From Promethearchaeota archaeon (GTDB lineage: Archaea > Asgardarchaeota > Lokiarchaeia > Sigyniarchaeales > SOKP01): DNA of 64,000 nt. The notes beneath the pieces are model-generated. The model did no database searches. It saw only the letters and a list, made by a program, of their open reading frames with translations, and was not told the DNA's origin. The position numbers were made by a program, and so were the translations under genes. Below are positions 13,573 to 45,585 of this stretch, one piece after another. The stretch spans positions 62,001 through 126,000 of the forward strand of contig JAHPZI010000002.1 in assembly GCA_019058295.1 (NCBI GenBank). Reading direction: 5' to 3'. Position 1 is the first letter of the stretch. Each line of letters begins with the position of its first letter.

Positions 13573-13637
13573 CTTTTTCCCGGTATATTAATTTTTATTT
13601 TCTTTCAATTAATATAATACTATTTATTAATTAAGAT

Positions 13638-18654: not shown

Positions 18655-19527
18655 ATGTCTGTTTATAATCCATTTTCTGAATTTAATTTTAACGATGCTG
18701 AAGAAAACATTTACAAATTACTAATTCAATTATCTTTAATTCCAAGAAAAGATTCAAAAAGTACCTACCACAAAATAAAAGCGACTGACTTGGTAGAATT
18801 CTCAAAGTATTCAAAACCAAAAGTATATGATATCATTAAGAGATTAGAAGAAAAAAGATTGATCCAGATTGATAATACTCGTCCTAAATTTGTAAAACCT
18901 ATAGAACCTGCGATTTCAATCGAGAATTTATTAAAATCGCGGAAAATTGAATTAGAAAAAGCTTCTGAATCCATAATCAATGAAATTAAATCATTACCCA
19001 AGCTGGACATTAATTACCCATTCAGTGAAGTACCCCCTCTCTCTTTCATAACAGGTTTAGAAGAATATCATAAACTTATGAGAACTATTTTACAAGGAGC
19101 AAAAGATGAAATTATCCTAATAATAGCATATCTATTAAAATATGAAGAGGATCTTTTGCGAGATTATATACAAAAAGCTGTCACAAAGGGTATAAAAGTG
19201 AGGATTCTATATGGAGGTCCACCTAAGTTTAGGATCTACTTTAGAAAGGAGATACTTGAACCGATTGGTTTGGAAGATGGTCAGACAACCACTGAAATTG
19301 ATGTTAAAGCAATTAATTTTGCCCCTCCTATAAGAATGACAATGGTTGATAATCGGGAATTAATTATGACGTTAATTAAAACTAATGTGAAAAATAAAAG
19401 AATAAACATCGAAGAAGCTTCTGCACTTTTTTCAGATCATGAAGAGCTCCTTGAATATACACGTCGCACTTATATTCTCTTAAGACCGACAGCAGATGCA
19501 CAACTTGCTGCGAAACTTAAAGGATAA
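18655..19527 (+). CDS. TrmB-family transcriptional regulator
   Basis: 290 residues. The N-terminal winged helix (about 13-85) has the TrmB form: DAEENIYKLLIQL, then KATDLVEFSKYSKPKVYDIIKRLEEKRLIQ, then RPKFVKPIEP. A coiled-coil linker is followed by a C-terminal effector domain (~125-290) with IILIIAYLLKYEEDLLRDYIQKAVTKGIKVRILYGG, a phospholipase-D-like fold common in TrmB relatives that bind sugars or other small ligands. It stands between an ABC exporter and the glycyl radical cluster, all on the same strand, and could regulate either. Two dyads lie just upstream. Confidence 0.85.
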   Translation: MSVYNPFSEFNFNDAEENIYKLLIQLSLIPRKDSKSTYHKIKATDLVEFSKYSKPKVYDIIKRLEEKRLIQIDNTRPKFVKPIEPAISIENLLKSRKIELEKASESIINEIKSLPKLDINYPFSEVPPLSFITGLEEYHKLMRTILQGAKDEIILIIAYLLKYEEDLLRDYIQKAVTKGIKVRILYGGPPKFRIYFRKEILEPIGLEDGQTTTEIDVKAINFAPPIRMTMVDNRELIMTLIKTNVKNKRINIEEASALFSDHEELLEYTRRTYILLRPTADAQLAAKLKG

Positions 19528-19758: not shown

Positions 19759-22311
19759 ATGCAAACTGAGATTAAAAAACAGGTAAAAGTTCCAGAATTT
19801 AACTCAATGGATCTTCACCCTCAAAATCAAATTCAAAAAGATCGCTTATTAACAGCAGATCATTGGATCTGCTTGGAACGGGCGAAATTTTATACGGATA
19901 GTTATAAAGAGACAGAAGGGCAACATCCTTCAATCCGTACAGCAAAGGCTTTAAAGCACACCTTTGAGAATATGACTATCGCTATTTATCCTGAGGAATT
20001 ATTGGTGGGAAATAGATCTTCTCAATATATTGCACCCCCTATAGCCCCAGAAAGAGGCGACATGAATATGGTAATAAAGTTTCTTTTACCAACTCTTAAG
20101 AAAAGATATGGATATCATATCACGAAAGAGCATAAAAAATGGCTTAATAAAGAGATTATACCTTACTGGAAAGATAAATCCGTGAGAGCTCTGAAGGTTC
20201 CATTATTTGAGGAGCATGATCTATCGGACAAACTCACTTTAGGCAATGGCGGATTAAAAAGACTAAGAAATGCGTTTGGTTTAAAACACATAGGTAAGCT
20301 GGTGACAGACCCAGATGCTAATTTCTTTGATAAAGTTAAATTCTTTTTACAATTACCAAAATGGATTAAGCTAATGAAAGTAGGTACCGCTGATAATGTG
20401 AAAGGAAGGGGAAGATGTATTGATATGCAAGGTCATATTGTTCCAGGATATAAGAATGTCGTGAAATTTGGATTTAAGGGGATAAAAGAACAAGCTGAAA
20501 ACAGATTAAAGACTGCTAAGAATGATTCAGAAAAGGGTTTTCTGGAGGGAGTTATTATGACTTGTGAAGCAATGAGGGATTTTAGTCTTCGCTTCACAAA
20601 ATTAGCTAAGGAGATGGCGAGTACTGAAACTGATGAGGAAAGAAAAAAGGAATTACTGAAAATTGCAAAAATTTGTGAAAAGGTACCTTGGAATCCTCCA
20701 GACACATTTTATGAAGCAGTCCAATCTTTCTGGTTTACTCATAATGTGGTAATAATCAGTTATGGGATGGGGGGTATGACTCCAGGGCGTCTGGATCAAA
20801 TCCTATATCCATATTATAAGAAAGATAAAGATGCCAATTTAATTACGGATGATGATGCTTTAAGGTTACTTGAAGAAGTTATCATAAAGATTAACAATAA
20901 TGTAGTTATATGGCCTAATGTATTGGGTGCTCGCCTCAACCATTTAGGTTCAGATGTTCAAGATATTACTTTTGGAGGAGTAGATCGAAATGGAGAAGAT
21001 GCAACCAATGAACTTACGTATATCTGTATGGAAGCAATAAAAAATACTAAGCTTGCTACTCAATCCTCTTTCCGAATTTCAAAAAATAGTCCTGAAGAAT
21101 ATTTAAAAAAGGTCTTGGAATTACACAAATATACAGCTGGACCAGCTTTGTTTAATGATGAGGTTATTATTAAAGCTCTTCAGAAAGATGGATATTCATT
21201 GGAAGCTGCAAGAGACTACTGTGTAGTGGGGTGCGTAGAGCCAAGTGGTAATGGAGATACATATGGAGCAACTGGAGGTACTAAACTATATTTCCCATCT
21301 ATTCTTGATTTGACATTTAATCGGGGTATTACAACCTTTTTTGGAGGGGAAAGGGATATTGATACGGGAGATCCCGTAGAGTTTAAGTCATTTGATGAGT
21401 TTATGGAAGCATATTATACTCAATTAGATCATATTGTTGATGTATGTGCTAAAGCAGGAGACTTGAGAGATCAAGTCTGGGCTGAAAACTATCATAATCC
21501 ATTGATTTCATGTACTATTGATGGGTGTATTGAAAATGCTATGGATATGACTCAAGGGGGAGCTGAACTCATGTTCCATGCAATTGGTGGCGGGGGATTA
21601 GGAACGATAGTGGATTCTTTAGCGGCTATAAAGAAATTTGTGTATGAAGAAAAAAAAGTATCTATGAACGATTTACTTCATGCTATACAAACCAATTTTA
21701 AGGATAACGAACCTTTAAGGCAAATCTTAATGAATGGTCCAAAATTTGGAAATGATGATGATTACACAGACAAAATCGCCGTAGAATTAGTGAAAAAGTT
21801 TTGTACAATGGTAAAAAGTAAAAATTTGTCAATGGGAGATTTTTTCAAACCAAGTTTTAGTTCTTATGGTCTAAATGTATATGAAGGAGCATTAGAACCC
21901 GCAACTCCGAATGGAAGAAAAGCGGGTGAGCCAATTTCAAACGCAATCTCTCCTTGTAATGGTGCTGAACTGAATGGTCCTACCGCAGCATTAAATTCAG
22001 TAGCTAAAATTGACCATACGAATATAGGATATGGTGATTCTCTGAATATGAGGTTCCCACCCTTCTTAACAGATAATGATAAGGGACTTGAAACCTTTAA
22101 GAATTTGCTTGAAACCTACTTTGAAAAAGGAGGAATGCATCTTCAAGTCAATAATATGGGAACTGACACATTAAAGGATGCTCAACTAAATCCTGAAAAT
22201 TATCCCGATTTAATTGTACGGGTTTCTGGATATTCAGCCTATTTTACAAGGCTTGGCAGGGCAATCCAAGATGATTTGATAGATAGAATTGAATTTTGTA
22301 ATTGTTTTTAA
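19759..22311 (+). CDS. glycyl radical enzyme (dehydratase/lyase class) 1
   Basis: 850 residues, the usual length of PFL-like glycyl radical enzymes. The active-site loop reads GCVEP (Cys492, Glu494), the thiyl-radical Cys and general-base Glu pattern of the dehydratase and C-N/C-O/C-S lyase group rather than the CC pair of pyruvate formate-lyase. The C-terminal radical motif is RVSGYSAYF with Gly824. It needs a radical SAM activase, and none is encoded in the window. First gene of a cluster with an FAD-linked oxidase, a decarboxylase-like protein, a second GRE and corrinoid methyltransferases. The substrate is unknown; the loop after the Cys (SGNGDTYGATGGTK) differs from the common glycerol/choline enzymes as I recall them. 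Confidence 0.9.
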   Translation: MQTEIKKQVKVPEFNSMDLHPQNQIQKDRLLTADHWICLERAKFYTDSYKETEGQHPSIRTAKALKHTFENMTIAIYPEELLVGNRSSQYIAPPIAPERGDMNMVIKFLLPTLKKRYGYHITKEHKKWLNKEIIPYWKDKSVRALKVPLFEEHDLSDKLTLGNGGLKRLRNAFGLKHIGKLVTDPDANFFDKVKFFLQLPKWIKLMKVGTADNVKGRGRCIDMQGHIVPGYKNVVKFGFKGIKEQAENRLKTAKNDSEKGFLEGVIMTCEAMRDFSLRFTKLAKEMASTETDEERKKELLKIAKICEKVPWNPPDTFYEAVQSFWFTHNVVIISYGMGGMTPGRLDQILYPYYKKDKDANLITDDDALRLLEEVIIKINNNVVIWPNVLGARLNHLGSDVQDITFGGVDRNGEDATNELTYICMEAIKNTKLATQSSFRISKNSPEEYLKKVLELHKYTAGPALFNDEVIIKALQKDGYSLEAARDYCVVGCVEPSGNGDTYGATGGTKLYFPSILDLTFNRGITTFFGGERDIDTGDPVEFKSFDEFMEAYYTQLDHIVDVCAKAGDLRDQVWAENYHNPLISCTIDGCIENAMDMTQGGAELMFHAIGGGGLGTIVDSLAAIKKFVYEEKKVSMNDLLHAIQTNFKDNEPLRQILMNGPKFGNDDDYTDKIAVELVKKFCTMVKSKNLSMGDFFKPSFSSYGLNVYEGALEPATPNGRKAGEPISNAISPCNGAELNGPTAALNSVAKIDHTNIGYGDSLNMRFPPFLTDNDKGLETFKNLLETYFEKGGMHLQVNNMGTDTLKDAQLNPENYPDLIVRVSGYSAYFTRLGRAIQDDLIDRIEFCNCF

Positions 22312-22315
22312 GGTT

Positions 22316-23848
22316 ATGGTTAAAATGTCTAAAATAAAAGAAATATATAAAGAAATTGAAAACATCGTCGGGTCTGATTATGTTTCTGATAAAGATTTCA
22401 TGAAAGCGGCATATTCTAGGAATGTAGATCCTGCCTTTCCCGATAGATGGGCTGATGTAATAGTTAGACCTGAAAATGCCGAGGAAGTTTCTGATATTGT
22501 GAAAATTGCAAATAAGTATAAGATACCTATTGTTCCAAGAGGCGGCGGGGCTGACTTGGTTGGCGGGTCAGTCTCAGAGGGTGGGATTTTGATGGACCTC
22601 ACTCGGATGAATAAGATCATAGAAATTAATGAAGATGATTTTTACTGTTTCGTTGAGTGCGGTATTACTTGGGGAGAATTGAATTCAGCACTTCTCAAAA
22701 AGGATTTGACTGTTGGGATTATTGGTCCTGGCAGCGGATTTAGTGCGACAATTGGAGGGGGATTATCAAATAATACAGCAGGATTTGGATCAACCAAATA
22801 TGGATTAATTACTGAAAATTGTCTTGGTGTCGAAGTTGTTTTAGGAAATCCTGAGGGTTCAATCATAAGAACTGGTTCCATTGCCAATCAATTTGCCAAA
22901 CCTTTTTGCAGGTATGGAGTCACTCCCGATTTTACAGGTATATTTCTTGGAGATGTGGGCACCATGGGTATAAAAACGAAGGCCGCCTTGAAACTTTATC
23001 CACATCCCCCTTATAAAATCAGAAAAAACTATATGCTATTGAAAAATGATTATAATCTACTTTTTAAAGTAATGAAGAAGTGTCAGACTGAACTTAGAGA
23101 TGGAATGCAAGATTTGTATGTAACTCCGCTTACAGCTGTAAAGGTATTGGCGTCTCAAGTAAAAAAAAAACCTCAAAAAAGAGCTAGAATAAAAGGACCT
23201 ATTTTACTTTTTATTTTAGAGGCTTTTAATGAGCGAATTCTAAAGATTTATGAAGAAACGCTTTCAGATATTATGAAAGATGTTGCTAGACCATTTGAGT
23301 GGACAGAACTAGATTTGACGGCAGAGTCAACAAAGGAATGGCGGTTTAATTTAGGTTTTTCATATACATATTTTAATAAATTTGTTTCACTTGCCCCACC
23401 GAAGATATCTTGTACCACATGTCATAAAATTCCTATATCTTCGATGGCTGAAAAGAAAGCGCTTAGTTCAGAATTTGATGATGCACATAAGGGTGAATTT
23501 CCACCCCAAAGTGTCGCATTATTTGCATCTTCAATCCATTTAATATCAAATGGTCATTGTGTTTTTGCTGGAGGATTTGCCACAGACAATATAGAATCTT
23601 CTCGGGACTTAGCAATGAAAATTTGGCATAAAAGGGTTGCAAATCAAGCTAAATATGGGGGCGTACATTATTGGTTAGGCGAATCGATTTCCCAATCAAT
23701 CGTTGAGTCGGGAGCACTTACCCCTGATTTCCTAAAATTTTTCAAAAACATTAAAAAAAGTGTGGATCCGAATTTTCTTTTAAGTCCAAAGAAATTCCAT
23801 ATGTATTCGTATAAAGATGATATAAATAAATACATTAAAAAAGAATAG
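22316..23848 (+). CDS. FAD-linked oxidase/dehydrogenase (PCMH/VAO-type)
   Basis: About 510 residues. The N-terminal PCMH FAD-binding domain shows VPRGGGADLVGGSVSEGGILMDL, GITWGEL, and GPGSGFSATIGGGLSNNTAGFGSTKYG, the flavin-pyrophosphate signatures of the GlcD, alkyl-DHAP synthase and vanillyl-alcohol oxidase superfamily. The C-terminal cap ends LSPKKFHMYS. SCTTCHKIP has two Cys that might bind a metal or cluster. An upstream ATG at 22289 overlaps the GRE; starts at 22316 or 22325 fit better, just after a short aagg. Likely role: oxidise a 2-hydroxy acid or alcohol made by the adjacent GRE, passing electrons to an unknown carrier. Confidence 0.8.
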   Translation: MVKMSKIKEIYKEIENIVGSDYVSDKDFMKAAYSRNVDPAFPDRWADVIVRPENAEEVSDIVKIANKYKIPIVPRGGGADLVGGSVSEGGILMDLTRMNKIIEINEDDFYCFVECGITWGELNSALLKKDLTVGIIGPGSGFSATIGGGLSNNTAGFGSTKYGLITENCLGVEVVLGNPEGSIIRTGSIANQFAKPFCRYGVTPDFTGIFLGDVGTMGIKTKAALKLYPHPPYKIRKNYMLLKNDYNLLFKVMKKCQTELRDGMQDLYVTPLTAVKVLASQVKKKPQKRARIKGPILLFILEAFNERILKIYEETLSDIMKDVARPFEWTELDLTAESTKEWRFNLGFSYTYFNKFVSLAPPKISCTTCHKIPISSMAEKKALSSEFDDAHKGEFPPQSVALFASSIHLISNGHCVFAGGFATDNIESSRDLAMKIWHKRVANQAKYGGVHYWLGESISQSIVESGALTPDFLKFFKNIKKSVDPNFLLSPKKFHMYSYKDDINKYIKKE

Positions 23849-23883
23849 ATTTGAGACAATTTTAAATAAAAAAAGGATGAAAA

Positions 23884-24684
23884 ATGAGTTTTAGAAGAGA
23901 ATTAGAAGATATTAAAAAGAAAAAAGAAGAAATGATTACCAGCGTTTTTAAAGGAGCAGAAATGGTCTGGGTATTATGGGAAACTAAAAAGGAAGTTGTT
24001 GAGCGAGTACTCCCTCCCCCGTTGGAACCACTGAATCGTCCAATTGCTCTTGCGTTTGTAGCTAACTATCCCTCTCATTCATATGGATTGCCTTACAGAG
24101 AAGCAGCATTAATTTTAAGGTGTAAATATAAAGCTGAATTGGGAAATTACTTCCTTGCGATGCCCCTGACAGACGATAGAGCTACATTTGCTGGTAGAGA
24201 GATATTTGGCTTCCCAAAAAAAATCGCAAATGTCCATTTTGAGAAGAATGGAAACAAAATTTACGGATTTTCTGAGCGCAATGGAGTTAAAAATATTGAA
24301 ATTAAACTGAATATTACAGGTAAGTTCAATGATGTGGAAACCCCTAAAATTGTGTCTGAGATCCAAATGATTCCAAAAAGAGGTAAAGGAACTGTTAATT
24401 ACCTTTTTAAACATTTTCCCCATCCAACTAAAGAAGGATTTGATTATACCCCTTGGTTGATAAAGCAGGTAACTAAATCTAAAATCAAATCTATGCAAAT
24501 GGGAGAAGCTGAAATTACTTTAAATTCAACAATCCATGATCCATGGGGGGAAATTGAAGTTGTAAAAATTTTGGGGGGCATGTATTTACAATCTGAGAAT
24601 GAAATGTTCCCAGGAGAAATACTTACAGAAGTAGATCCTGATGAATTTTTACCCTATTCATACATTAAATGGGATTGGTATTAA
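23884..24684 (+). CDS. acetoacetate decarboxylase-family protein
   Basis: 266 residues with the acetoacetate decarboxylase fold: LALAFVANYPSHSYGLPYREAAL, then GREIFGFPKKIA, where Lys112-Lys113 match the Schiff-base lysine and the neighbour that tunes its pKa, then LGGMYLQSENEM. The family includes decarboxylases and also aldolase-dehydratases, so the reaction may be decarboxylation of a beta-keto acid or another imine-based step. Ribosome site AGGATGA lies 7 nt before the ATG. It sits between the FAD oxidase and the second GRE, 35 and 29 bp away, clearly in the same operon. Confidence 0.85.
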   Translation: MSFRRELEDIKKKKEEMITSVFKGAEMVWVLWETKKEVVERVLPPPLEPLNRPIALAFVANYPSHSYGLPYREAALILRCKYKAELGNYFLAMPLTDDRATFAGREIFGFPKKIANVHFEKNGNKIYGFSERNGVKNIEIKLNITGKFNDVETPKIVSEIQMIPKRGKGTVNYLFKHFPHPTKEGFDYTPWLIKQVTKSKIKSMQMGEAEITLNSTIHDPWGEIEVVKILGGMYLQSENEMFPGEILTEVDPDEFLPYSYIKWDWY

Positions 24685-24713
24685 AAATAAGTTTTTAAAT
24701 TTAGAAGATTAAG

Positions 24714-27269
24714 ATGAGCGAAAGAATTAAAAGATTGCGTAAAAGATACCAGACAGAAATGCCAAAAATTTCAATTGAAAGGGCAAAATATTATACAGAT
24801 CAGTGGTTCGAAACTGAGAATAATGGAACCCCCCAGAATATACGAGTTGCACTTTCAATGAAGAATGTATATAAAAACATGACTCATTATGTAGATCCCG
24901 ATGATAGGATTGCAGGTTATTGGACTGAGGATTTTATGGGGATACCAATTGATATTGAACGGGGGGTTTTCAATAAAGTGTTTGAGACGGAACTTAGTTG
25001 GTGGACTCTTTTACGTTTCAGAATAGGAGCAATCCTAAAGTCCTTTAAATTCTTACGTGAAAAAGAATATTTGCATGACTTTCTACAAAATAATAAGAGA
25101 CTCCGCAAAGAAGGTTCCCAACCTTTAAATTTTGGAGTCAAAACAATGGAAAAAAGAAAAATAAATCCCTTTAAAATTAATAAGAAAGATAAGAAAATTT
25201 TATTGAAAAAACTCCTTCCGAAATGGAATGGGAACACGCTAGTAAATATACTAGAGGATGAAATTCCGAAAGCAGGTATTCTTTCAGGAAGTATGGTAGA
25301 ATTTTCTAATGCTATGCCCGCAAATACCTCTAGGCAAACTAAAATGATTAGTATGTGTGCTACAATATCTACTTACCAAGGCCATGTTATAATAGATTAT
25401 GAAACCCCAATTAAAAAAGGTTTGCTTAAAATGAAGGAGGAGATTGAGGTTGAAATTGAAAATAGTTCGTCATTATCCTCAGATGATTTAAATACATTAA
25501 AATCCCTTAAGACGGCAATAGAAGGAGTCATTATCTTCGCAGAAAGACTAGCTGAAAAGGTTGAATCTGAATATAACAAAGCAACCGATTCTACACAGAA
25601 AGCGATCTTAAAAAGAATGTTAGAAAATTGTAAAAAAGGTCCCTTATATCCAGCAGAAACTTTTTATGAGGCGATACAATCAGGATGGACAGTAAAAACC
25701 GCTATTGAGTTAGCACATCCTGTAAATTTACATTGTTTTGGTCGTATGGATCAAATATTTTATCCTTATTATAAAAAGGATATTGAGAATGGTATTATTA
25801 CCCAAGATGAGGCAAGAGAGCTATTAGAAGAACTTTTACTAAAAGTTATGTCTCAGAATATCAGACCAGAAACAAACTTGCTTGCAAATTTTTATCATAG
25901 ATTTTTAGGTTCTACTCCAATAACACTTGGAGGACTAAAACCTGATGGGACAGACGCAACTAATGAATTAACCTATCTTTTTCTCGAGGCTGCTAATAAT
26001 TCAAGGGCAGTAACAAATATCTCTCTCAGAATTAATGAAGCCACGCCCGATGATGTATTGTTGAAAGCAGCAGATGTTTTATATCAAGGGAGTTCAAATC
26101 TCTCGTTTTTTAATGATGATGTTAATGTAGAGTCGATGAAAAAAAGAGGCTTTTCTGAAGAGGATGCCCGCGATTATGCTGTAATGGGATGTGTAGAAAT
26201 GCTCTGTCCTGGTAAAACAGGGGGCATGAGCGCTAATGCATTACTTCTATGTAGGTTGTTAGATCTCACATTGCGTAATGGTGATTCTCAAACTTTTATG
26301 GGTCTTATTAAAGAATTAGGACTTAAAACTGGTGAACCAGATTCTTTCTCTACATTTGAAGAATTTTTGGAAGCCTTTTTAACTCAAGCAAATAAACAGG
26401 TAAAATTGCTTGTTGATGTCTCAAATCTTCGCGATCAATTATATGCTAAATATTTACCAGCTCCATATATCTCTGCTTTTATAGAGGGATGTATAGAAAG
26501 TAGGAAAGATGTTACTCAAGGAGGGGGAAAATATGATTTATCTGGTATCTCCTTCATCAATAGTATTGCCAATTTAACCGATTCTTTATATGTTATTAAG
26601 AAACTCATCTTCGATGAAAAGATAACAACTTTTAAGGAACTTATGAATGCAATAGATATGAATTATAACGGCTATGAAGACCTCTATTATAAAATTCTAA
26701 AATTAGAGGGTAAATGGGGAAATGGTTATAAAGAAGTCGACGATCTATGTCATTATGTTTCTAAACAGCTATTCGAAGACACATATAATTATACTTCTTA
26801 TAGGGGGGGAGCATTTGTCCCGTATCTTATCAGTATGACAACACATACTATTGATGGTCGAATCTCTATTGCAACTCCAGATGGTCGTAAAGCTGCTAGT
26901 CCTTATGCTGCAAGCTGTAATCCATATAATGTAGAAAAATGTGGTATAACCAACGTATTCCATTCCGTTTCTGCTATAGATTATGAAGATGTATTAGGAT
27001 GTGCTGTAAATGTAAAGTTTCATCCCACAGCCATAGGAGAAAAATTAGAAAATCGTGAAAAATGGATTGCTTTAATCCGCGCATATTTCGAATTAGGTGG
27101 ACAACAGGTACAACCCACTGTCGTTTCTGCTGAAATGCTTAAAGAGGCACAAGACAATCCAGGCATGTATGGAGATTTAATTGTTAAAGTTGGAGGATAT
27201 TCTGCATATTTCTGTGAGTTAGGTATTGAAATCCAAAATGAAATTATTGCTAGGACAGAACATGAATAA
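24714..27269 (+). CDS. glycyl radical enzyme 2 (divergent)
   Basis: 851 residues, paralogous to the GRE at 19759. The active-site loop is GCVEM with Cys493 and Glu495, again the lyase/dehydratase pattern. The C-terminal radical motif is KVGGYSAYF, in place of the usual R-V-[SA]-G-Y. Arg is Lys and the residue before the radical Gly828 is Gly, an unusual variant. Everything else looks intact. Two GREs of different loop sequence in one operon suggest two consecutive radical steps or two related substrates. The 5' end is close to the decarboxylase-like gene and the 3' end is 15 bp from the UroD-type methyltransferase. Confidence 0.88.
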   Translation: MSERIKRLRKRYQTEMPKISIERAKYYTDQWFETENNGTPQNIRVALSMKNVYKNMTHYVDPDDRIAGYWTEDFMGIPIDIERGVFNKVFETELSWWTLLRFRIGAILKSFKFLREKEYLHDFLQNNKRLRKEGSQPLNFGVKTMEKRKINPFKINKKDKKILLKKLLPKWNGNTLVNILEDEIPKAGILSGSMVEFSNAMPANTSRQTKMISMCATISTYQGHVIIDYETPIKKGLLKMKEEIEVEIENSSSLSSDDLNTLKSLKTAIEGVIIFAERLAEKVESEYNKATDSTQKAILKRMLENCKKGPLYPAETFYEAIQSGWTVKTAIELAHPVNLHCFGRMDQIFYPYYKKDIENGIITQDEARELLEELLLKVMSQNIRPETNLLANFYHRFLGSTPITLGGLKPDGTDATNELTYLFLEAANNSRAVTNISLRINEATPDDVLLKAADVLYQGSSNLSFFNDDVNVESMKKRGFSEEDARDYAVMGCVEMLCPGKTGGMSANALLLCRLLDLTLRNGDSQTFMGLIKELGLKTGEPDSFSTFEEFLEAFLTQANKQVKLLVDVSNLRDQLYAKYLPAPYISAFIEGCIESRKDVTQGGGKYDLSGISFINSIANLTDSLYVIKKLIFDEKITTFKELMNAIDMNYNGYEDLYYKILKLEGKWGNGYKEVDDLCHYVSKQLFEDTYNYTSYRGGAFVPYLISMTTHTIDGRISIATPDGRKAASPYAASCNPYNVEKCGITNVFHSVSAIDYEDVLGCAVNVKFHPTAIGEKLENREKWIALIRAYFELGGQQVQPTVVSAEMLKEAQDNPGMYGDLIVKVGGYSAYFCELGIEIQNEIIARTEHE

Positions 27270-27284
27270 AAAAGAGGTGTAATC

Positions 27285-28790
27285 ATGGTTTATATTCCAG
27301 GATTTCTAGTAAATAAGGTGTATGAGAGAGGTAGTTTACAAAACACAGAAGATGGGTTCACATTTACGTTTAAGAATACTATGACTCCCGTAAAAATTAG
27401 CGGGATGAGCCAATTAAAAATAACTATTGATGGTGAAATTTCAATCCCGCAAGAGAATGTGGAACTTGAACTTGGAGGTCGAATCTTCAAGGTCTCTGGC
27501 GAACCTTTAAAGGAACTTGTAGAATTTTCAAAAAATTCAAAACTTTTTATTCGTATTAAAGGAGATCATCTCTCAAATGGAAAACATGTGTTAAAAATTA
27601 GTTTTATTACTCATGAATATGGAGGAGTCACTCTTAAAGTTAAAGATGCCATGGGAGATATTGAATATCTAACTAAATGGCAGAAATTTAAAAAGCTGTT
27701 TTCAAGAAAAAAGAAGAAAGTGGCTATAAAACCTATGATTATTGAAGGGGAGTTAGGTGGTGTTCCATTAGATCCCGATTTTTCACGATTAGAAAAGGTG
27801 ATACATCATGAAATACCTGATAGAGTACCTTTATTTGAAGCAGAAATCGAAATACCGATTAAAGAAGCCTTCTTAGGTCGTGAAATCCAGACGGCCGAAG
27901 ATGATGTCGAGTTTTACATCAGAGCAGGTTATGACTTTGTACCCGTAGTTCCTCCCTTTTTCACGCCTAGAGTAATGCGACAAGCGAATGGGGATGAGAG
28001 GAGTTGGATTACCGAAAGTGAAGGGCGCATTAAAACTATAGAAGACTTTGAAAAATTTCCATGGCCTGACCCGGATGAAGTCGACTTCTCTTCTTTTTAT
28101 GAAATAGCAGCACTACTTCCTCCAAAAATGAAAATTTTAGGATTACTTTCACCAGCCGCAGTATTTGGAAACACATCCCAATCAATGGGATTAACTAATT
28201 TTTCTTATGCCCTATATGATAATATTGAATTAGTTGAAGCCTTATTCGAAAAAATTGGTTCTTCTTATTTAAAAATAGCAAAACGGCTTGCTAAAGTACC
28301 AAAACTAGGAGCAGTACTAATGTCAGACGATCTAGCACATACAGGAGGGTGTTTTATAAATCCAAAAATTTATAGAAAATACGTGTTCCCGTGGTATAGA
28401 GAGATAGGACGTGTTTTTGAGAATGCGGGCATTCCGTTTATTTTTCATTCTGATGGCAATTTTATGGCTGTTTTTAATGATTTAGCAGATTGTGGTGTCA
28501 AGGCAATTCACCCAATTGAGCCTCAGGCAATGAATATTGTAGAAGTTAAGAAAGAATATGGTGATAAGTTCTGTATTTTTGGTAATATAGATCTTGAATA
28601 TACATTGACCAGAGGAACCGTGGAAGAAGTCGAAGCACAAGTGAAACAAAGAATAAAAGAACTCGCACCCGGTGGAGGCTGGGGGTGTGCTGCTTCAAAT
28701 TCCATCCCTGATTATGTTAAACCTGAAAATTTTAAGGCGATGGTTGAAGCTGTCAAAAAATATGGTAAATATCCTATAAATATTGAATAA
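27285..28790 (+). CDS. UroD-type methyltransferase with N-terminal CGDB-like domain
   Basis: 501 residues. From ~160 on it is a uroporphyrinogen decarboxylase-fold methyltransferase (MtaA/MtbA-like): ...HEIPDRVPLFEAEIEIP, FIFHSDGN with His388, and GGGWGCAASNSIPDYVKPENF with Cys468, plausible zinc ligands. Residues ~1-125 are a separate beta-rich domain with SLQNTEDGFTFTFKNTM..VKISG and LSNGKHVLKISF, which I recognise tentatively as the C-glycoside deglycosidase beta-subunit family (CGDB, formerly DUF6379). Fusion to a methyltransferase is unusual. It probably moves a methyl group from an unknown donor to the corrinoid protein encoded 14 bp downstream. Ribosome site AGAGGTG is strong. Confidence 0.8.
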   Translation: MVYIPGFLVNKVYERGSLQNTEDGFTFTFKNTMTPVKISGMSQLKITIDGEISIPQENVELELGGRIFKVSGEPLKELVEFSKNSKLFIRIKGDHLSNGKHVLKISFITHEYGGVTLKVKDAMGDIEYLTKWQKFKKLFSRKKKKVAIKPMIIEGELGGVPLDPDFSRLEKVIHHEIPDRVPLFEAEIEIPIKEAFLGREIQTAEDDVEFYIRAGYDFVPVVPPFFTPRVMRQANGDERSWITESEGRIKTIEDFEKFPWPDPDEVDFSSFYEIAALLPPKMKILGLLSPAAVFGNTSQSMGLTNFSYALYDNIELVEALFEKIGSSYLKIAKRLAKVPKLGAVLMSDDLAHTGGCFINPKIYRKYVFPWYREIGRVFENAGIPFIFHSDGNFMAVFNDLADCGVKAIHPIEPQAMNIVEVKKEYGDKFCIFGNIDLEYTLTRGTVEEVEAQVKQRIKELAPGGGWGCAASNSIPDYVKPENFKAMVEAVKKYGKYPINIE

Positions 28791-28804
28791 AGAGAGGTTC
28801 TATA

Positions 28805-29434
28805 ATGGAAAAATTAAAAGAATTAGTAGTAGAAGGATATAATAAAGATACTGTGGAAAGAATAAATATACTTTTAGAGAAAGGTAACAGCGCAGAAGAT
28901 ATTTTAAACAAAGCGTTGATTCCAGCTATGGATAAAGTAGGAGAATTATTTCAAAAAAATGAATATTTTATTCCAGATTTGTTGATCGCCTCAAGAGCAA
29001 TGGAAGAAGGGATGGAAATTCTAAAACCATTACTAGCCAAAGGAGAAAATACGAAATCCTTGGGAAAATTCGTCCTTGGTACAGTCAAGGGTGATCTACA
29101 TGACATTGGTAAGACCTTAGTAGAATCTGTACTGAAAGGTGCGGGATTTGAAGTGATAGATCTTGGAACTGATATTCCTCCTGAAAAATTTGTAGAGGCA
29201 ATAAAAGAGCATAATCCTTTCGCAGTTGGATTAAGTGCCCTTCTTACAATTACTATGATAGAAATGGAAAATGTAGTGAAGGCAATAAAAGAGGCAGGAT
29301 TACGGGATAAAGTTAGAATCCTGCTTGGAGGAGCTCCTGTAACTAAAGAATTTACAGAAGAAATAGGAGCAGATTTCTATGGAGAGGATCCTCATTCAGC
29401 AAAAAATTACCTCCTAAGTGTTATTAAACAATAA
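28805..29434 (+). CDS. corrinoid (B12-binding) protein 1
   Basis: 209 residues with the two-part layout of methyltransferase corrinoid proteins (MtbC/MttC-like). A helical cap (about 1-85) is followed by a Rossmann-type cobalamin domain containing GDLHDIGKT, where His99 is the lower cobalt ligand of the DxHxxG motif, then GLSALLTITMIEME and ILLGGAPVT. It carries methyl between methyltransferases. Directly follows the UroD-type enzyme, 14 bp away, with ribosome site GAGAGGT. The Co(II)-to-Co(I) reactivating enzyme is not in the window. Confidence 0.92.
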   Translation: MEKLKELVVEGYNKDTVERINILLEKGNSAEDILNKALIPAMDKVGELFQKNEYFIPDLLIASRAMEEGMEILKPLLAKGENTKSLGKFVLGTVKGDLHDIGKTLVESVLKGAGFEVIDLGTDIPPEKFVEAIKEHNPFAVGLSALLTITMIEMENVVKAIKEAGLRDKVRILLGGAPVTKEFTEEIGADFYGEDPHSAKNYLLSVIKQ

Positions 29435-29519
29435 AAATAATATTTTATTAAAAATCTATAAAAAATTTTAATATTAATTTTACTATCTTGTAATCATCAA
29501 ATAACATTAAAAAAAAAAA

Positions 29520-30656
29520 ATGATAAAAATGATGAAAATAGAAAAATTGCCAAGAGAATGCGAAGAATATATGACTCCTAAGGAAAGAATTACAGCAATG
29601 ATTATGAGAAAGAAATGCGATAGAATCCCTGTTTTTCCATTTGTTTCTGCCGCAGCAGCACAAATACTTAAACTTAATTATGGAGAATATGCACAAAAGC
29701 CAGATTTATTTTTACGTGCGCAAATTGAAGCTCAAAAATTATTTGGCTACGATGCGATTACTGCGATGCCAGATTTATGTGTTGAAGCTCAAGGTTTTGG
29801 AGCGAACATAATTTATCCTGATAATAACGCTGCTTATCCAGATCCATATAATCCTGTAATAAAAGATCCTAGTGGATATAAGACTATTGATAAATTATTT
29901 GATTGGTCCCATGCAGACAGAATGAAAAATCAACTAAAGGTTGTAAGTACTATAAATGATCAATTACCCGATATGATGATTGGGGGAATGTCTATAGGTC
30001 CACTAGGACTCATTTCAAGACTTAGAAATGTTAATGAATTTGTACGAGACTTCATTCGGCATCCAGATTTAATCCATGAGGCATGTGAAAAAGTAACTGA
30101 TATTCAAATTGAATATATAGAGAAACAAATTGAGGCAGGAGCGAGGACTATAATGCTACCAGTTGTTTTAGCTGAGAGAGAACTGATGAGTAAAGAAATG
30201 TGGTTAGAATTTGATATGCCTTACCAACAGCGGATTGCTAAATTTGTCAAGAGAAAAAAGGCTCTATATTGTATACATACATGTGGTCGTGGGCCTTATT
30301 TCGATCTTTTAATTGAACACCTTAAACCTGTTCTTATCCAGAATGCTTTTTTACCGGATGGTGTTAAAACCGAAGAGGAAATGGTTGAAAAATATGGTAG
30401 AAAGTTAGTATTCTTAGGTTTTCTAAGTGTTGCATTGCTTGCTTGGTCAAGTCCTATGGAAGTAATAGCAGAATGTAAAAGAGAGCTTGAAGTCTTTGGA
30501 AAATCTCCCGCAGGATATTTTCTTGGAGCATCGTGTGAATACCCTCCATATGCTCCTTTATACAATGCACTGGCAGTAGTAAAGGCTGCTAGAATGTACG
30601 GGGCTAATTTTAAAACTGGAGAAGGACCAGATTATGAAGAGGAGGGTGCAACCTAA
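29520..30656 (+). CDS. UroD-type corrinoid methyltransferase 2 (MtaA/MtbA-like)
   Basis: 378 residues, whole-length UroD fold. Zinc-binding HTCG (His253, Cys255) and a later GASCEYPP Cys match the HxC...C site of MtaA/MtbA, which methylates a thiol-type or other acceptor from a methylcorrinoid. It differs from the first UroD protein, which has HSDG at this place, so the two probably do opposite half-reactions (substrate to corrinoid, corrinoid to acceptor). The N-terminus has several Met codons (29520, 29529, 29532). No coenzyme M pathway is evident here; a pterin acceptor is possible. Its gene abuts corrinoid protein 2. Confidence 0.85.
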   Translation: MIKMMKIEKLPRECEEYMTPKERITAMIMRKKCDRIPVFPFVSAAAAQILKLNYGEYAQKPDLFLRAQIEAQKLFGYDAITAMPDLCVEAQGFGANIIYPDNNAAYPDPYNPVIKDPSGYKTIDKLFDWSHADRMKNQLKVVSTINDQLPDMMIGGMSIGPLGLISRLRNVNEFVRDFIRHPDLIHEACEKVTDIQIEYIEKQIEAGARTIMLPVVLAERELMSKEMWLEFDMPYQQRIAKFVKRKKALYCIHTCGRGPYFDLLIEHLKPVLIQNAFLPDGVKTEEEMVEKYGRKLVFLGFLSVALLAWSSPMEVIAECKRELEVFGKSPAGYFLGASCEYPPYAPLYNALAVVKAARMYGANFKTGEGPDYEEEGAT

Positions 30657-30658
30657 AA

Positions 30659-31297
30659 ATGTCAAGAGAAGAAATTTTAGAAAAACTCAAGAATAGTGTT
30701 ATAGATTGCGATGAAGAGATTGCAAAGGAAGCTGCCAAAGAAGCTTTAGAGGCGGGAATCGATCCGATGGAGGCTTTAAAAGAGGGGCTTTATATGGGTT
30801 TGAAAGAAGTTTGCAACCAATATGAAGAAACTGTTTATATAACAGAAATGATATTTGCCTCAGATACATTTTATGCGGGTGCTAATATATTAAAAGCAAG
30901 TATAGATCCGGAAAAATTAAAAAAAAATAGAAAAGGTATTGCTGTGATTGGTGTTGTTGAAGGAGATATTCACGATCTTGGCAAAAATATGGTAAAATAT
31001 CTAATGGAAGCAGAAGGCTTTGAAGTTCATGATTTAGGATTTGATGTAAAAGCAGAGAGATTTATAGAAGAGGCAGAAAAATCTAACGCAGACCTCATCT
31101 TAATCTCATTGATGTTAAGTTCAATGTATCCAGAGATAAGTAAAATCGTCGGATTAGCAAAAGAAAAAGGTTTAAAAGCAAAAATAATGGCTGGTGGAGG
31201 ACCAGTTTCAGAAGGAATCGCTCAAAAATATGGCGCAGAGGGATGGGCTCTGACTGGTCCCTTAGCTGTTGAAAAAGCTTTAGACTTACTTAAATAG
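30659..31297 (+). CDS. corrinoid (B12-binding) protein 2
   Basis: 212 residues, same architecture as the corrinoid protein at 28805 but clearly divergent. Helical cap with acidic helices, then a cobalamin domain with GDIHDLGKN (His105 as cobalt ligand), LISLMLSSMYPEI and IMAGGGPVS. The start is 2 bp after the UroD stop and uses the GAGGAGGGTG within the end of that gene as ribosome site, so translation is coupled. It ends in TAG (31295-31297), showing TAG is a normal stop here. Last gene of the cluster. Confidence 0.92.
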   Translation: MSREEILEKLKNSVIDCDEEIAKEAAKEALEAGIDPMEALKEGLYMGLKEVCNQYEETVYITEMIFASDTFYAGANILKASIDPEKLKKNRKGIAVIGVVEGDIHDLGKNMVKYLMEAEGFEVHDLGFDVKAERFIEEAEKSNADLILISLMLSSMYPEISKIVGLAKEKGLKAKIMAGGGPVSEGIAQKYGAEGWALTGPLAVEKALDLLK

Positions 31298-31337
31298 ATT
31301 TAATTTTATATATTTTTAATATTTTTTTTATAATAAA

Positions 31338-32765
31338 ATGGTTATAACTCCTACTAAAATTTATGAAGATTTTAAGAATAATATTTTAGATAAACATTCC
31401 GCTGTTGATATTTTAATCTCACTAATAGAAAATAGTAAAAATAATAACATAAGAACTGAAAGCGTTGGATTTATTGAAAAAATTGGATATAACCACGATA
31501 AAATCTTTAGACTTTTTGAAAACTTATTAATATCAGATTCGAATAAAGAAGTTAGAATTGCTGCTGCTAATGCAATATATAAAAATTTTTTAGATAAGGC
31601 ATTAAGCCCTATGATGTATTCAATTCTTAATGAATCATCATTAGAATGCTTGAATATAGTTAAAAATTCTTTAACCAATATAATAAAAACATTGTTAGAA
31701 AGAGATGATAATTTCTCTAAACCAATCCTAATTAAAGAAATAAAGAAGATATCTAATCAAAAATTTAACGATAACTTGTATGATCTGATTAAGGAAGGTC
31801 AAATTAAAGAATTTTCAAGGAATGAATTAGCTCAAGTGTTAATTGATTACATTACAATTTCATTATTAAAAAAACAATTCCAAAAATTAAATTTCGAGTT
31901 AGAAAATGGAACAGTTAAAAAATTAGATTTAAGATTTAGATATTATAACATATCCTCCGAGTTAATATCGCCTTCTTCTCCAGTAATAATTCCGATCTTC
32001 AAAAATGATGGATTAGATACTCAATCAGGGTCAATTAATCCTCTATCTTCTTGTACTGAACTACATTTAAGTTATAATTCTTTAAAAGAACTTCCTAATT
32101 GGATAAAATCCCTTTCTTCTCTTGAATCTCTATATTTACATGGAAATTACTTAACTAAGCTTCCAGATTGGATTGGTTCTATAAGCTCGCTTAAAACAAT
32201 TGGATTATCTAGAAATAAATTATTGTCGCTCCCTAAATCTTTATTGGATCTTAGCTTGCTTAAATATTTGGGATTAAGCAATAATAATCTTAAATATGTA
32301 CCCGAATGGTTAGGATCACATAATTCGCTTGAAAAATTATGGTTGGATAATAATCATATTTTATCCCTTCCTGAGTCGCTTAAATCGCTTTCTTCGCTAA
32401 AATCTCTCTATTTAGGAAATAATAATTTAAGGATCCTTCCCGAAATTTTTGAGTCATTTAAATCTCTTAAGGCTCTATGGCTGGAAGGGAATGACATAGA
32501 AAAACTCCCTGAATCAATAGGTTCTCTCTCTTCCCTTGAATATTTATATTTGAATGATAATAAAATAAATGAACTTCCAAAGTCAATTAGTAAGCTTTCT
32601 TCGTTGAAATACTTACATCTTAATAATAATATGCTGATGAAAATTCCTGAATCGTTAGAACATCTCTCATCACTTAAAGGATTATGGTTAAAGGGTAATA
32701 ATTTAAAGGAAATACCTGATTCTATAAAAAAATTGAGAGAGAGAGGGGTTTCAGTTCATATCTAA
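31338..32765 (+). CDS. leucine-rich-repeat protein with HEAT-like N-terminus
   Basis: 475 residues. The first ~200 are helical with a HEAT-like look (KEVRIAAANAIYKNFL). From ~235 there are about ten 23-residue LRR units of the form LxxLxLxxNxLxxLPxxIxxLSS, e.g. LSSLESLYLHGNYLTKLPDW and LKALWLEGNDIEKLPES. No signal peptide or membrane span, so cytoplasmic. LRR proteins of this type are common in Lokiarchaeia and usually bind proteins; target unknown. It is convergent with the DNA methylase gene with no bases between the stops. AT-rich, with no sign of operon membership. Confidence 0.8.
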   Translation: MVITPTKIYEDFKNNILDKHSAVDILISLIENSKNNNIRTESVGFIEKIGYNHDKIFRLFENLLISDSNKEVRIAAANAIYKNFLDKALSPMMYSILNESSLECLNIVKNSLTNIIKTLLERDDNFSKPILIKEIKKISNQKFNDNLYDLIKEGQIKEFSRNELAQVLIDYITISLLKKQFQKLNFELENGTVKKLDLRFRYYNISSELISPSSPVIIPIFKNDGLDTQSGSINPLSSCTELHLSYNSLKELPNWIKSLSSLESLYLHGNYLTKLPDWIGSISSLKTIGLSRNKLLSLPKSLLDLSLLKYLGLSNNNLKYVPEWLGSHNSLEKLWLDNNHILSLPESLKSLSSLKSLYLGNNNLRILPEIFESFKSLKALWLEGNDIEKLPESIGSLSSLEYLYLNDNKINELPKSISKLSSLKYLHLNNNMLMKIPESLEHLSSLKGLWLKGNNLKEIPDSIKKLRERGVSVHI

Positions 32766-34718
32766 TCAAAAATTATAATATTTTTTGAGTAAATAATCGA
32801 TTTCCTCTTCATTTAGTTCAAATAATTGAAAAAATAATTTATCAATAATTTTTTGAATGAAATCTTTATTATTATACTCAAGAGCTACCTTAATATCTGC
32901 CATTAAATCTATTTGGTTAAAAATTGAAAAAAATCTTAAATTATTTAATTTTAAAATCAAGTGATTTAGATTGTGCTGTTCAGAGGAACGATCTAGTTCA
33001 ATTAAACAGGAGATAAGGAATTTAATTACAGATAAAATCGCTAAATCTTCCTCAGACTGAAATTTTTCCATATTTGGTATAGGTAATCCATATTCAAGTT
33101 TTGTTTTGCTTCTTTTAATTTGAATGTTTTTTGCTTTAAATAGAAAGTGAACAAGTTTGGAATTTAAATAGGCCAGGATAAATCTATAGTTTACTTTTTC
33201 TTCCAAAATTCTTGGCCACAGAAAATATGTATCTGAGGTGGCAAAATAAGGAGAATTTGAAAATCCAAATATGTTTTTAGTTGAGATATATTTTAAAAAG
33301 ATTTTTTTACTATTCTCATATAAAGGTTCGAGATCTATTATTTTATCTTTAAAATCTTCTTCTAACCTTCTAATAAAAGTACCTCGTCTTGGAAAATAAA
33401 AATCTTCAGGATTTTCTTTTGCGTTTATTAATATTTCTCGTAATTCTTTTTCAAACTGTTTTAAATATGATGTAAGAACAGGATATTTTTTATCATATAA
33501 TTGATTTCGTTCATGTTCTTCATGATAAGGGAATTCATTTTTATTAAAATAAATTGCATATCCATCGTTATCATTCTGATTATATCCATAATGCTTTATA
33601 GATTTACTCTTGTATATTTTTTTAAGCCTATTTTTTTCTATTTCAGAAAGTTTTAAATAATGATTATTTATTTTAACGAAATATTCGTCATTTTCAATTT
33701 TTAAGTTATTTTCCTTGGTTAAAATAAAGATTTTATCCTTTATGAAGATTAAACCATTGCGAATTATAAAATAATCTCTTAATAAAGAAAGTTCTCCTTT
33801 AATGGAACAAAAATTTTCAATTTTATTAACAATTTCTTTAACTTCTTGAGGATAAATCAGATTCCAACTACCTTCTCTTTTCAAATCCCTATTAGTTGAA
33901 GCAGATTTATATCTCAATATATCATTAGATTCAGCGTTCTGGAGTAAATCCATAAAAATTTTCTTATTAAAGAGTTCATCTGATAGATTAGAGTTCTTTC
34001 TGTGCCGAACTTGAACAATCTCTATAGATTTATCAATTTTTTGTATTTTTTCTTGCTCATTTTTCTTTTGCAACACGAATATACAGTTATGTTGCCCTTC
34101 TGCTCCCTTAAATAGCTTTAAACGTGATAAATCGACATATTGAAGCAAAAAACACTCATCTATTATATGAGGTTTTAAAAATTTTATTCCTGTTTTTTTG
34201 GATTTTGTAATCCAATAATTTGTAGTAATAAATGATAGAATTCCTCCAGGATTTAATTTTATTATTCCTAAATGAATAAAATAATAAAATAAATCCATAT
34301 TTCCTACGAAATAGTTTTCGCATACTGGATAATTCTTAACATAATCTTGAAAAACTTCTGCATTATAGTTTTGCCCTAAATAGGGAGGATTTCCTATAAT
34401 TACATCAAATTTTTCATTAATGTTTGAACTAAAAAAATTTTCAAATTTGAATTTTACACTCGAATAAGTACTTAAAAGATGATCTTTTAAACAATCATCT
34501 ATTTCATAAGCAGTAATATCATTAAAATTGTTTTGAAGTAGGTATTTCAAGAAAATTCCTTTTCCAACAGATGGTTCTAAAATTTTGAAATCATGCGGGT
34601 TCTTATCATCAACCTCAATGAATTTTAATACATTATTTACCATAAACTCAGCAACATATTCAGGAGTGAAGATCTGACTAAAAGACTCATTCCTAATATT
34701 ATTATTTTTTAAAACCAT
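32766..34718 (-). CDS. adenine-specific DNA methylase (TaqI/Eco57I-like)
   Basis: 650 residues. The N-terminal N6-adenine methyltransferase has SQIFTPEYVAEFMV, motif I ILEPSVGKGIF and catalytic motif IV IGNPPY. The C-terminal half, with YFATSDTYFLWP and LNSKLVHFLFKAK, looks like the TaqI-type target-recognition domain of type II/IIG enzymes. A nuclease (PD-(D/E)xK) motif at the N-terminus is absent, so a stand-alone methylase is more likely than a complete type IIG restriction enzyme. No separate restriction gene is adjacent. It could methylate a specific DNA site for regulation or as a leftover of a mobile defence unit. Confidence 0.82.
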   Translation of the reverse strand: MVLKNNNIRNESFSQIFTPEYVAEFMVNNVLKFIEVDDKNPHDFKILEPSVGKGIFLKYLLQNNFNDITAYEIDDCLKDHLLSTYSSVKFKFENFFSSNINEKFDVIIGNPPYLGQNYNAEVFQDYVKNYPVCENYFVGNMDLFYYFIHLGIIKLNPGGILSFITTNYWITKSKKTGIKFLKPHIIDECFLLQYVDLSRLKLFKGAEGQHNCIFVLQKKNEQEKIQKIDKSIEIVQVRHRKNSNLSDELFNKKIFMDLLQNAESNDILRYKSASTNRDLKREGSWNLIYPQEVKEIVNKIENFCSIKGELSLLRDYFIIRNGLIFIKDKIFILTKENNLKIENDEYFVKINNHYLKLSEIEKNRLKKIYKSKSIKHYGYNQNDNDGYAIYFNKNEFPYHEEHERNQLYDKKYPVLTSYLKQFEKELREILINAKENPEDFYFPRRGTFIRRLEEDFKDKIIDLEPLYENSKKIFLKYISTKNIFGFSNSPYFATSDTYFLWPRILEEKVNYRFILAYLNSKLVHFLFKAKNIQIKRSKTKLEYGLPIPNMEKFQSEEDLAILSVIKFLISCLIELDRSSEQHNLNHLILKLNNLRFFSIFNQIDLMADIKVALEYNNKDFIQKIIDKLFFQLFELNEEEIDYLLKKYYNF

Positions 34719-34854
34719 ATAATTTAAATTATAGGTTATAAAAACTAAATAATTGTTTGTTTAATGCTTATTATTTTGAAGATTTTATTAAATGAAAAGT
34801 AAGAATTATAAAAAATTATTTTTAATTTTTATTGATATTCTTATCCCAACTAAA

Positions 34855-35784: not shown

Positions 35785-35796
35785 CTTCTCTCCCTC

Positions 35797-36468: not shown

Positions 36469-36658
36469 TTTATCATCAACAATTTTGTTTTAATATAAAA
36501 AATATATACCTATTTTAGAGAAATTTTCAAATTATTAAAATTTTAATATTAATTTTGATAAATTTATGTCTAAAAAAAATACTAATCTTTTTAAAAAAAG
36601 AAATAGTATTACGAAAAATAAAAAAATGAAAAAAAAAAGAAATTAATTTAAAATTGTC

Positions 36659-44064: not shown

Positions 44065-44155
44065 ATTTCATTTCTCTATTTTTTTTTTTTTCCATTCTTA
44101 TTTTTATTTGATTAATGTAATTTTGTTTTGATTTTTAAAAAAAGGGATTTACATA

Positions 44156-45582: not shown

Positions 45583-45585
45583 TTT

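Follow-up and report, generated by a model that had tools for sequence, protein, structure and literature searches.

Organization of the gene island

The window analyzed here is a stretch of 64,000 nucleotides (contig JAHPZI010000002.1) from a lokiarchaeon, whose genome (3.2 Mb, ~79% complete) holds eight loci for glycyl radical enzymes (GREs). At positions 19759-31297 of the window two GREs, GRE-A and GRE-B, are encoded together with an FAD-linked oxidoreductase (FAD protein), an acetoacetate-decarboxylase-family protein (ADC) and two pairs of a UroD-type methyltransferase and a corrinoid protein, UroD1-Cor1 and UroD2-Cor2 (Table 1). An earlier sequence-only reading had described this region as a one-strand cluster of eight genes with short gaps. 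This description is borne out by eight open reading frames on the plus strand, by the measured gaps of 4, 35, 29, 15, 14, 85 and 2 bp, and by the Pfam domains, which follow in the order PF02901+PF01228 (GRE), FAD_binding_4, ADC, GRE, URO-D, B12-binding, URO-D and B12-binding. The FAD gene most likely starts at the ATG at 22316. The unit extends beyond these eight genes and includes the TrmB-like regulator upstream of GRE-A, which ends 231 bp before it.

Table 1. Positions of the island genes and of neighbouring features in the window
Feature	Position	Strand	Basis
TrmB-like transcription regulator, probable island regulator	18655-19527	+	PF01978 TrmB
GRE-A, uncharacterised clade, dehydratase/lyase-type loop	19759-22311	+	PF02901+PF01228; tree; motif alignment
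VAO/GlcD-fold FAD-linked oxidoreductase	22316-23848	+	PF01565; Foldseek
Junction where G023 has an extra 1.2-kb CCG (HdrB/GlpC-type) gene	23845-23863	+	blastn breakpoints
Acetoacetate-decarboxylase-family protein (ADC)	23884-24684	+	PF06314; Schiff-base lysine motif GREIFGFPKK
GRE-B, putative new GRE family, clade 1, GCVE	24714-27269	+	Pfam; alignment; trees
UroD1, candidate UroD-type methyltransferase I, N-terminal beta domain	27285-28790	+	PF01208+PF25653
Cor1, corrinoid protein, UroD1 partner	28805-29434	+	PF02310+PF02607; GDLHDIG
UroD2, MtaA/CmuA-like methyltransferase, zinc motif HTCG...C	29520-30656	+	PF01208; 4ay7 match; motifs
Cor2, corrinoid protein, invariable UroD2 partner	30659-31297	+	PF02310+PF02607
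Segment absent from G022 (UroD2, Cor2, LRR gene, DNA methyltransferase gene end)	29449-33070	+	blastn
MetF + MetV, methylene-tetrahydropterin reductase pair	34855-36468	-	similarity to second pair; earlier naming

Gene order is conserved among relatives around a variable edge

Contigs of the same genus are those of Ca. Lokiarchaeota/Lokiarchaeia AMARA_1S, TEKIR_6S, LW40_45 and ABR15; the GRE-B of AMARA_1S is 96% identical to that of the window. Lack of a conserved order in relatives had been named as grounds for giving up the sequence-only reading. In genome G023, a sister species (locus L039), the regulator, GRE-A, FAD, a CCG gene, ADC, GRE-B, UroD1 and Cor1 follow one another up to the contig end; apart from the CCG gene the order is that of the window, and this ground falls away. 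The TrmB-like regulator precedes GRE-A both in L039 (88% identity) and in L074 of G015 (44% identity). Pieces of the island were found in other genera: regulator, GRE-A and the start of GRE-B (L074) and GRE-B-FAD-ADC (L061) in G015; FAD, ADC and GRE-B in G013 (L063); GRE-B-FAD-MFS in G024 and G025 (in G024, 3.8 kb separate GRE-B from ADC); and, in another family, ADC divergent from GRE-A at a distance of 87 bp (G075, L189). A second locus of G023 (L043) has the order GRE-B (60% identity), activase (AE; 13197-14105), UroD1 (78%), Cor1 (71%), an unnamed protein and TauE. ADC-family genes are few per genome, and ADC lies near GRE-B in 5 of the 8 Asgard loci seen for clade 1, the GRE-B clade of the window; by our own rough estimate, the chance of an ADC neighbour within 6 kb is at the ~1% level. 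GRE-B of clade 1 also adjoins ADC in two bacterial metagenome-assembled genomes (L278 and L280); L280 is from an Actinomycetota, and its GRE-B is truncated. Thus, the linkage of the island genes exceeds chance, with the order recurring in G023 and pieces of it in other genera and in bacteria.

The island varies at two sites. The CCG gene of G023 (L039, 5455-6537; PF02754) encodes a TfrB/GlpC-like protein, and DNA alignment showed that this 1.2-kb stretch is without counterpart in the window between 23844 and 23863 (blastn breakpoints 7825/9044 on the reverse strand of L039). This corresponds to a clean deletion of the CCG gene in the window or to an insertion in the sister species. The FAD protein is 79% identical between the window and L039, compared with 97% for GRE-A and 94% for ADC, indicating that the FAD/ADC junction has been remodelled. 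At the second site, in G022 (L040), another sister species, the genes immediately after GRE-B, UroD1 and Cor1 are those for the DNA methyltransferase, MetF and MetV, and window segments 24810-29448 and 33071-36500 flank a gap of ~340 bp in L040 (blastn). UroD2-Cor2 is absent at this same site and is therefore an optional add-on. UroD2 matches were present in 19 Asgard genomes, and UroD2-Cor2 forms an unbroken pair in many unrelated contexts. A fixed eight-gene pathway is ruled out by the free-standing occurrence of this pair together with its indel in G022. The single eight-gene set of the sequence-only reading stands in that its order recurs, but not as a closed set, given the absence of UroD2-Cor2 from G022 and of CCG from the window. 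The core of the island is regulator, GRE-A, FAD (with or without CCG), ADC, GRE-B, UroD1 and Cor1, and the island is partly mobile.

The UroD2-Cor2-LRR segment (29449-33070) has the look of a movable methyltransferase cassette of two genes that carries an LRR gene as passenger.

Both GREs fall outside the characterized GRE clades

GRE-A and GRE-B score well over the cut-offs of PF02901 and PF01228 and have intact glycyl loops (RVSGYSAYF and KVGGYSAYF, respectively). GRE-A carries the Cys loop GCVEPSGNGDT and a QGH motif; the GCVE form of the loop (C-x-E) is present in GRE-A, in GRE-B and in all clade 1 members seen. C-x-E has been described as conserved among GRE eliminases, with the Glu acting as the base that generates the ketyl radical (PMC7077986). 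The earlier proposal that the GCVE loops point to dehydration or lyase chemistry is therefore upheld by the presence of the eliminase loop in both enzymes. PFL-type thiolysis is ruled out, as the CC motif is absent and GCVE stands in its place.

Neither enzyme reached any of the equivalogs for characterized GREs in NCBIfam (GD/PD, HypD, CutC, sulfopropanediol, HPAD, IAD and PFL). The best NCBIfam score was 576 bits for GRE-A (subfamily cut-off 678) and 470 bits for GRE-B. HypD gave the best equivalog score for both (557 and 419 bits, respectively), yet far below its cut-off of 1100, and lies on a separate branch. Trees were built with one reference set of GD, PD, HypD, CutC and 6lon and another of GD, PD and HypD, using partial sequences copied from HMMER alignments. 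Both window GREs fell into clades separate from all of these references. An assignment of both enzymes to a known clade, which had been regarded as a possible refutation, is thus ruled out by scores and trees.

We compared the window GREs with the GD/PD dehydratases (1r9d, 5i2g), with which they share the GCVE loop, the H164-type histidine, the glycyl loop and clear sequence homology. CutC has Asp at the H164 position and 6lon a gap. In contrast, the substrate-binding GD residues H281, S282 and D447 are kept in neither GRE-A nor GRE-B in the alignment, and the GREs form separate, fully supported clades. The retention of H164 combined with the loss of the other three residues led us to call both enzymes dehydratase-like with new pockets. 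YbiW/PflD GREs act on cyclic sugar alcohols in their catabolism (1,5-anhydroglucitol or anhydromannitol 6-phosphate; PMC12441222); the window GREs score lower to the solved YbiW/PflD chains than to GD, HypD or CutC.

GRE-A belongs to a clade of six Asgard sequences with 100% support. GRE-B lies within a clade of 30 members (100/100) on a long stem, with hosts among Lokiarchaeota, Helarchaeota, Actinomycetota, Chloroflexota (Dehalococcoidia), Thermodesulfobacteriota, Myxococcota, Zymogenaceae and unnamed bacteria. Judged by sequence, GRE-B founds an undescribed family of two clades, common to Asgard archaea and several bacterial phyla. Clade 1, which includes the window enzyme, has GCVE, NFYHR[FY]LGS-type and AHP[VI]N-type strands. 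In clade 2 the Cys loop is GCVD, with S-C-V/T-D in the tandem partners of bacteria, and the strands are of the R[YF]EGSE and PFNV types. Among 39 other GREs checked, one has Asp instead of the C-x-E Glu.

The C-x-D clade comprises loci L045-L060, L062, L065, L258, L259, L263, L265, L268, L277 and L284. These are mostly near sugar-catabolism genes, with a tandem second S-C-V/T-D copy in bacteria, and the C-x-D clade could be a new radical sugar dehydratase.

Genomic context of the GRE-B family

The neighbours of clade 2 include a GPH sugar symporter (11 loci), KDPG aldolase (9 loci) and an FGGY kinase (8 loci), together with cupin GPI, 2-hydroxyacid dehydrogenase, DUF2804 and an adjoining activase of its own; Fe-ADH, DeoC aldolase and GPH symporters accompany bacterial members. 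Clade 1 has SDR/epimerase genes nearby in L252 and L280 and an SDR in L257, and acyl-CoA dehydrogenase, TauE and PIG-L are also present in L280.

Methyl-transfer genes occur beside both clades. UroD2 homologues lie beside clade 2 GRE-B in G027 and G031, and the Dehalococcoidia locus L268 (clade 2) contains two GRE-B-family genes, an activase, a corrinoid protein and two UroDs, the first of which is at 32% to UroD1; its GPH symporter scores over the cut-off. These occurrences show that the tie between the GRE-B family and methyl transfer arose or persisted more than once. Literature searches on GREs together with corrinoid methyltransferases yielded chiefly studies of the choline/betaine type, and those on Asgard GREs mostly hydrocarbon studies.

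Methyl transfer and GRE activation

Cor1 and Cor2 both contain DxHxxG, and each adjoins a gene of the UroD fold. Among solved proteins UroD1 is nearest to CdmB (E 1.9e-6, over the C-terminal part), a UroD methyltransferase I without zinc whose closest kin are archaeal O-demethylases (PMC13222342). Because the nearest solved relative falls in the O-demethylase/dehalogenase superfamily, methyl removal by UroD1 is reasonable. Neither CdmB nor the Moorella O-demethylase contains zinc (PMC13222342), and in UroD1 the zinc HxC motif is likewise replaced by HSDGN. UroD1 shares the UroD fold and a separate corrinoid protein with the MtvB/OdmB/VdmB/MtoB and CdmB systems, but differs from them in its extra N-terminal beta domain, its weak similarity to CdmB and its linkage to GREs instead of an MtrH-type partner. 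Six UroD1 homologues were found at E<=1e-60 among 228 genomes of the phylum, four of them behind clade 1 GRE-B; the remaining two lie on short contigs that carry no GRE. UroD2, in contrast to UroD1, keeps HTCG and GASC, and thus the HxC...C zinc ligands of MtaA/CmuA, and aligns over its full length with 4ay7; however, it reaches 106 bits compared to a subfamily cut-off of 235 and always occurs with its own corrinoid protein. The earlier assignment of the UroD/corrinoid pairs to methyl transfer is retained; UroD2-Cor2 is optional and not part of a fixed set.

The N-terminal domain of UroD1 (27285-27650) consists of ~120 residues and matches HMG-CoA_red_N (PF25653).

The sequence-only reading had also drawn in nearby MetFV-Hdr genes as the point of entry of the methyl group. 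MetF, MetV and Hdr genes are indeed close by, but on the opposite strand. MetF and MetV of Table 1 were named by their similarity to a Pfam-identified pair at 42394-44064, and they adjoin the island in G022 (L040) as well. Entry of the methyl group into the Wood-Ljungdahl (tetrahydromethanopterin) branch is plausible. Neither an MtrH-type methyltransferase II nor a corrinoid activator, as in a complete Mto/Odm system, was found in or near the cluster; the host genome has one MtrH homologue, on another contig.

The window region 42394-49068 encodes, besides this second MetF-MetV pair, a large HdrA-MvhD fusion (FlpD + pyridine nucleotide-disulphide + Fer4) and Hdr-like genes.

Two activase homologues are encoded elsewhere in the genome, one beside another GRE and one beside an alpha-galactosidase-like gene. 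The activase at L326:7621-8640 (G000:C30), with no GRE in the 15 kb covered, has an alpha-galactosidase-like gene and a GPH-like symporter as neighbours. The L326 activase may serve the orphan GREs of the window.

The FAD protein and ADC form part of a widespread module

Proteins ~59-71% identical to the FAD protein occur commonly within the order. A CCG gene adjoins them in 16 of 20 loci, often along with ADC and without any GRE, and genes for OYE-type reductase, acyl-CoA ligase, thiolase and SDR are present in some of these loci as well. The arrangement of an FAD_binding_4 protein beside CCG in most relatives is that of the GlcD/LctD flavoproteins with a GlcF/GlpC-type CCG partner; the window differs in that the CCG gene is missing and the C-terminal half of the FAD protein is without a Pfam match. 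Structure prediction for the FAD protein gave a VAO/D-lactate dehydrogenase fold (mean pLDDT 70.5, TM ~0.7), with eugenol oxidase and D-lactate dehydrogenase as Foldseek matches between which the model cannot choose. The Schiff-base lysine of ADC (GRE-x-x-GFPKK) aligns with that of the solved ADCs 3c8w and 3bgt and is kept in homologues. We infer that in this module the flavoprotein would be an alcohol dehydrogenase with an iron-sulfur protein as its electron acceptor, and that a Schiff-base decarboxylase or lyase would act next.

In the lokiarchaeal loci L105, L109, L110, L112, L113 and L121, two to four FAD paralogues are arrayed with CCG. Genes for a BaiCD/OYE-like reductase, acyl-CoA ligase and thiolase accompany them, a combination that recalls the degradation of alicyclic or steroid-like compounds.

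A scan for promoters and terminators gave a signal no better than that of shuffled sequences, and a tRNA scan found none.

Possible function of the island and alternatives

As the function of the island we tentatively favour anaerobic catabolism of a methylated polyhydroxy compound; an O-methyl sugar, sugar acid or cyclitol is the most likely substrate. The methyl-transfer and dehydration steps follow from family membership and linkage, and the substrate class from the sugar context of the sister clade; substrate class, reaction order and direction of methyl transfer are what we infer, beyond the observed domains, motifs, gene order, conservation and indels. UroD1 would move the methyl group to the Cor1 corrinoid (the methyltransferase I step), from which it would pass to the tetrahydropterin pool via an unlinked methyltransferase II, possibly the MtrH homologue. 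The FAD enzyme, normally paired with CCG, would oxidize an alcohol to a ketone, and GRE-B and GRE-A would each dehydrate vicinal-diol-like positions by a thiyl/ketyl radical route. The ADC-family lysine would then decarboxylate or cleave the resulting beta-keto intermediate. UroD2-Cor2 may provide an optional further methyl transfer, the pair having been acquired or lost as a unit. This scheme keeps the idea of degradation of a methylated compound from the sequence-only reading; the sugar-like or polyol substrate, taken from the GRE-B family, had not been proposed.

Several observations weigh against this assignment. The cluster in the window contains no sugar kinase, aldolase or sugar transporter and no GRE activase, and the sugar context belongs to the sister clade with GCVD, whose substrate may differ. 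UroD1 and Cor1 are absent from the clade 1 loci of G024 and G025, and GRE-A has few informative neighbours. The structure model of UroD1 was unusable (pLDDT 49), and no RACo-type corrinoid activator (PF14574) was found in the 79%-complete genome. Finally, the company of FAD-CCG-ADC with acyl-CoA ligase, thiolase and OYE suggests carboxylic or alicyclic substrates.

The alternative that survives best, although we consider it unlikely, is that two or three unrelated modules (GRE-A/FAD/ADC/GRE-B, UroD1-Cor1 and UroD2-Cor2) lie side by side without forming a single pathway, with UroD2-Cor2 serving another substrate. The indel in G022 and the many other contexts of UroD2-Cor2, the frequency of FAD-CCG-ADC without GREs in the order, and the G024/G025 loci lacking UroD1-Cor1 would all fit such an arrangement. 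However, the four UroD1 homologues behind clade 1 GRE-B (one with an activase in between) belong to two diverged copies (60% identity), UroD pairs recur beside clade 2 in another lokiarchaeal genus and in Dehalococcoidia, and the ADC/GRE-B neighbourhood recurs across domains.

Degradation of a methoxylated aromatic (lignin-type) compound seems improbable. Here UroD1-Cor1 would be an Mto/Odm-like O-demethylase, the FAD protein would oxidize a methoxyphenol side chain, and the GREs would dehydrate an arylglycerol-type chain or decarboxylate an aryl acid. By fold and sequence, pinoresinol hydroxylase, eugenol oxidase and VAO are close to the FAD protein, but D-lactate dehydrogenase is equally close. 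In the phenol-oxidizing flavoenzymes of the VAO/PCMH type a Tyr-Arg pair binds the phenolate. GEYRT of p-cresol methylhydroxylase aligns with HYWLG of the FAD protein in a weakly scored stretch of the profile alignment; the Arg thus appears not to be kept, which would speak against a phenol substrate. The UroD superfamily does hold the O-demethylases MtvB, OdmB, VdmB and MtoB (PMC13222342), and mto homologues have been reported in Lokiarchaeota (PMC8359953); against this, the GREs score far below the aryl-acid decarboxylases HPAD and IAD, and the sister clade of GRE-B sits in sugar operons.

Still less probable is a choline- or sulfonate-like logic, in which a GRE frees methylamine, methanethiol, dimethyl sulfide or methanol for demethylation by the UroD-corrinoid pairs. 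The action of CutC followed by corrinoid-dependent demethylation of trimethylamine is a known precedent, and TauE/SafE-family exporters are found near clade 1 GRE-B in L043 and L280. However, at the H164 column both GREs have His, in contrast to Asp in CutC and a gap in 6lon, and their CutC and sulfopropanediol-dehydratase scores are far below the cut-offs. A biosynthetic role, with the corrinoid pairs methylating or remodelling a cofactor- or lipid-like product and the GREs stripping its hydroxyls, is very improbable: UroD-corrinoid enzymes can work in both directions and the window cluster lacks a dedicated transporter, but the TrmB-type regulator, the transporters in relatives (MFS in L041/L042, GPH in the sister clade) and the patchy presence between close species look catabolic.

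Returning to the catabolism of a methylated polyhydroxy compound, a more far-reaching version, which we hold to be doubtful, is that GRE-B enzymes are new cross-domain radical dehydratases of sugars or cyclitols, with Asp in one clade for the catalytic Glu of the C-x-E loop, and that the GCVE clade of Lokiarchaeota is coupled to corrinoid O-demethylation. Methylated sugars or cyclitols would then be degraded anaerobically by a route not described before, with the methyl group entering the archaeal Wood-Ljungdahl branch.

Lokiarchaeota are relatives of the ancestor of eukaryotes. If the favoured assignment is true, O-methylated sugars or cyclitols would be a source of both carbon and methyl groups for these organisms. 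Radical dehydration and corrinoid methyl transfer are brought together in the island, and the clean Glu/Asp split of the GRE-B family, in a motif described as conserved, offers a direct test case for ketyl radical generation.

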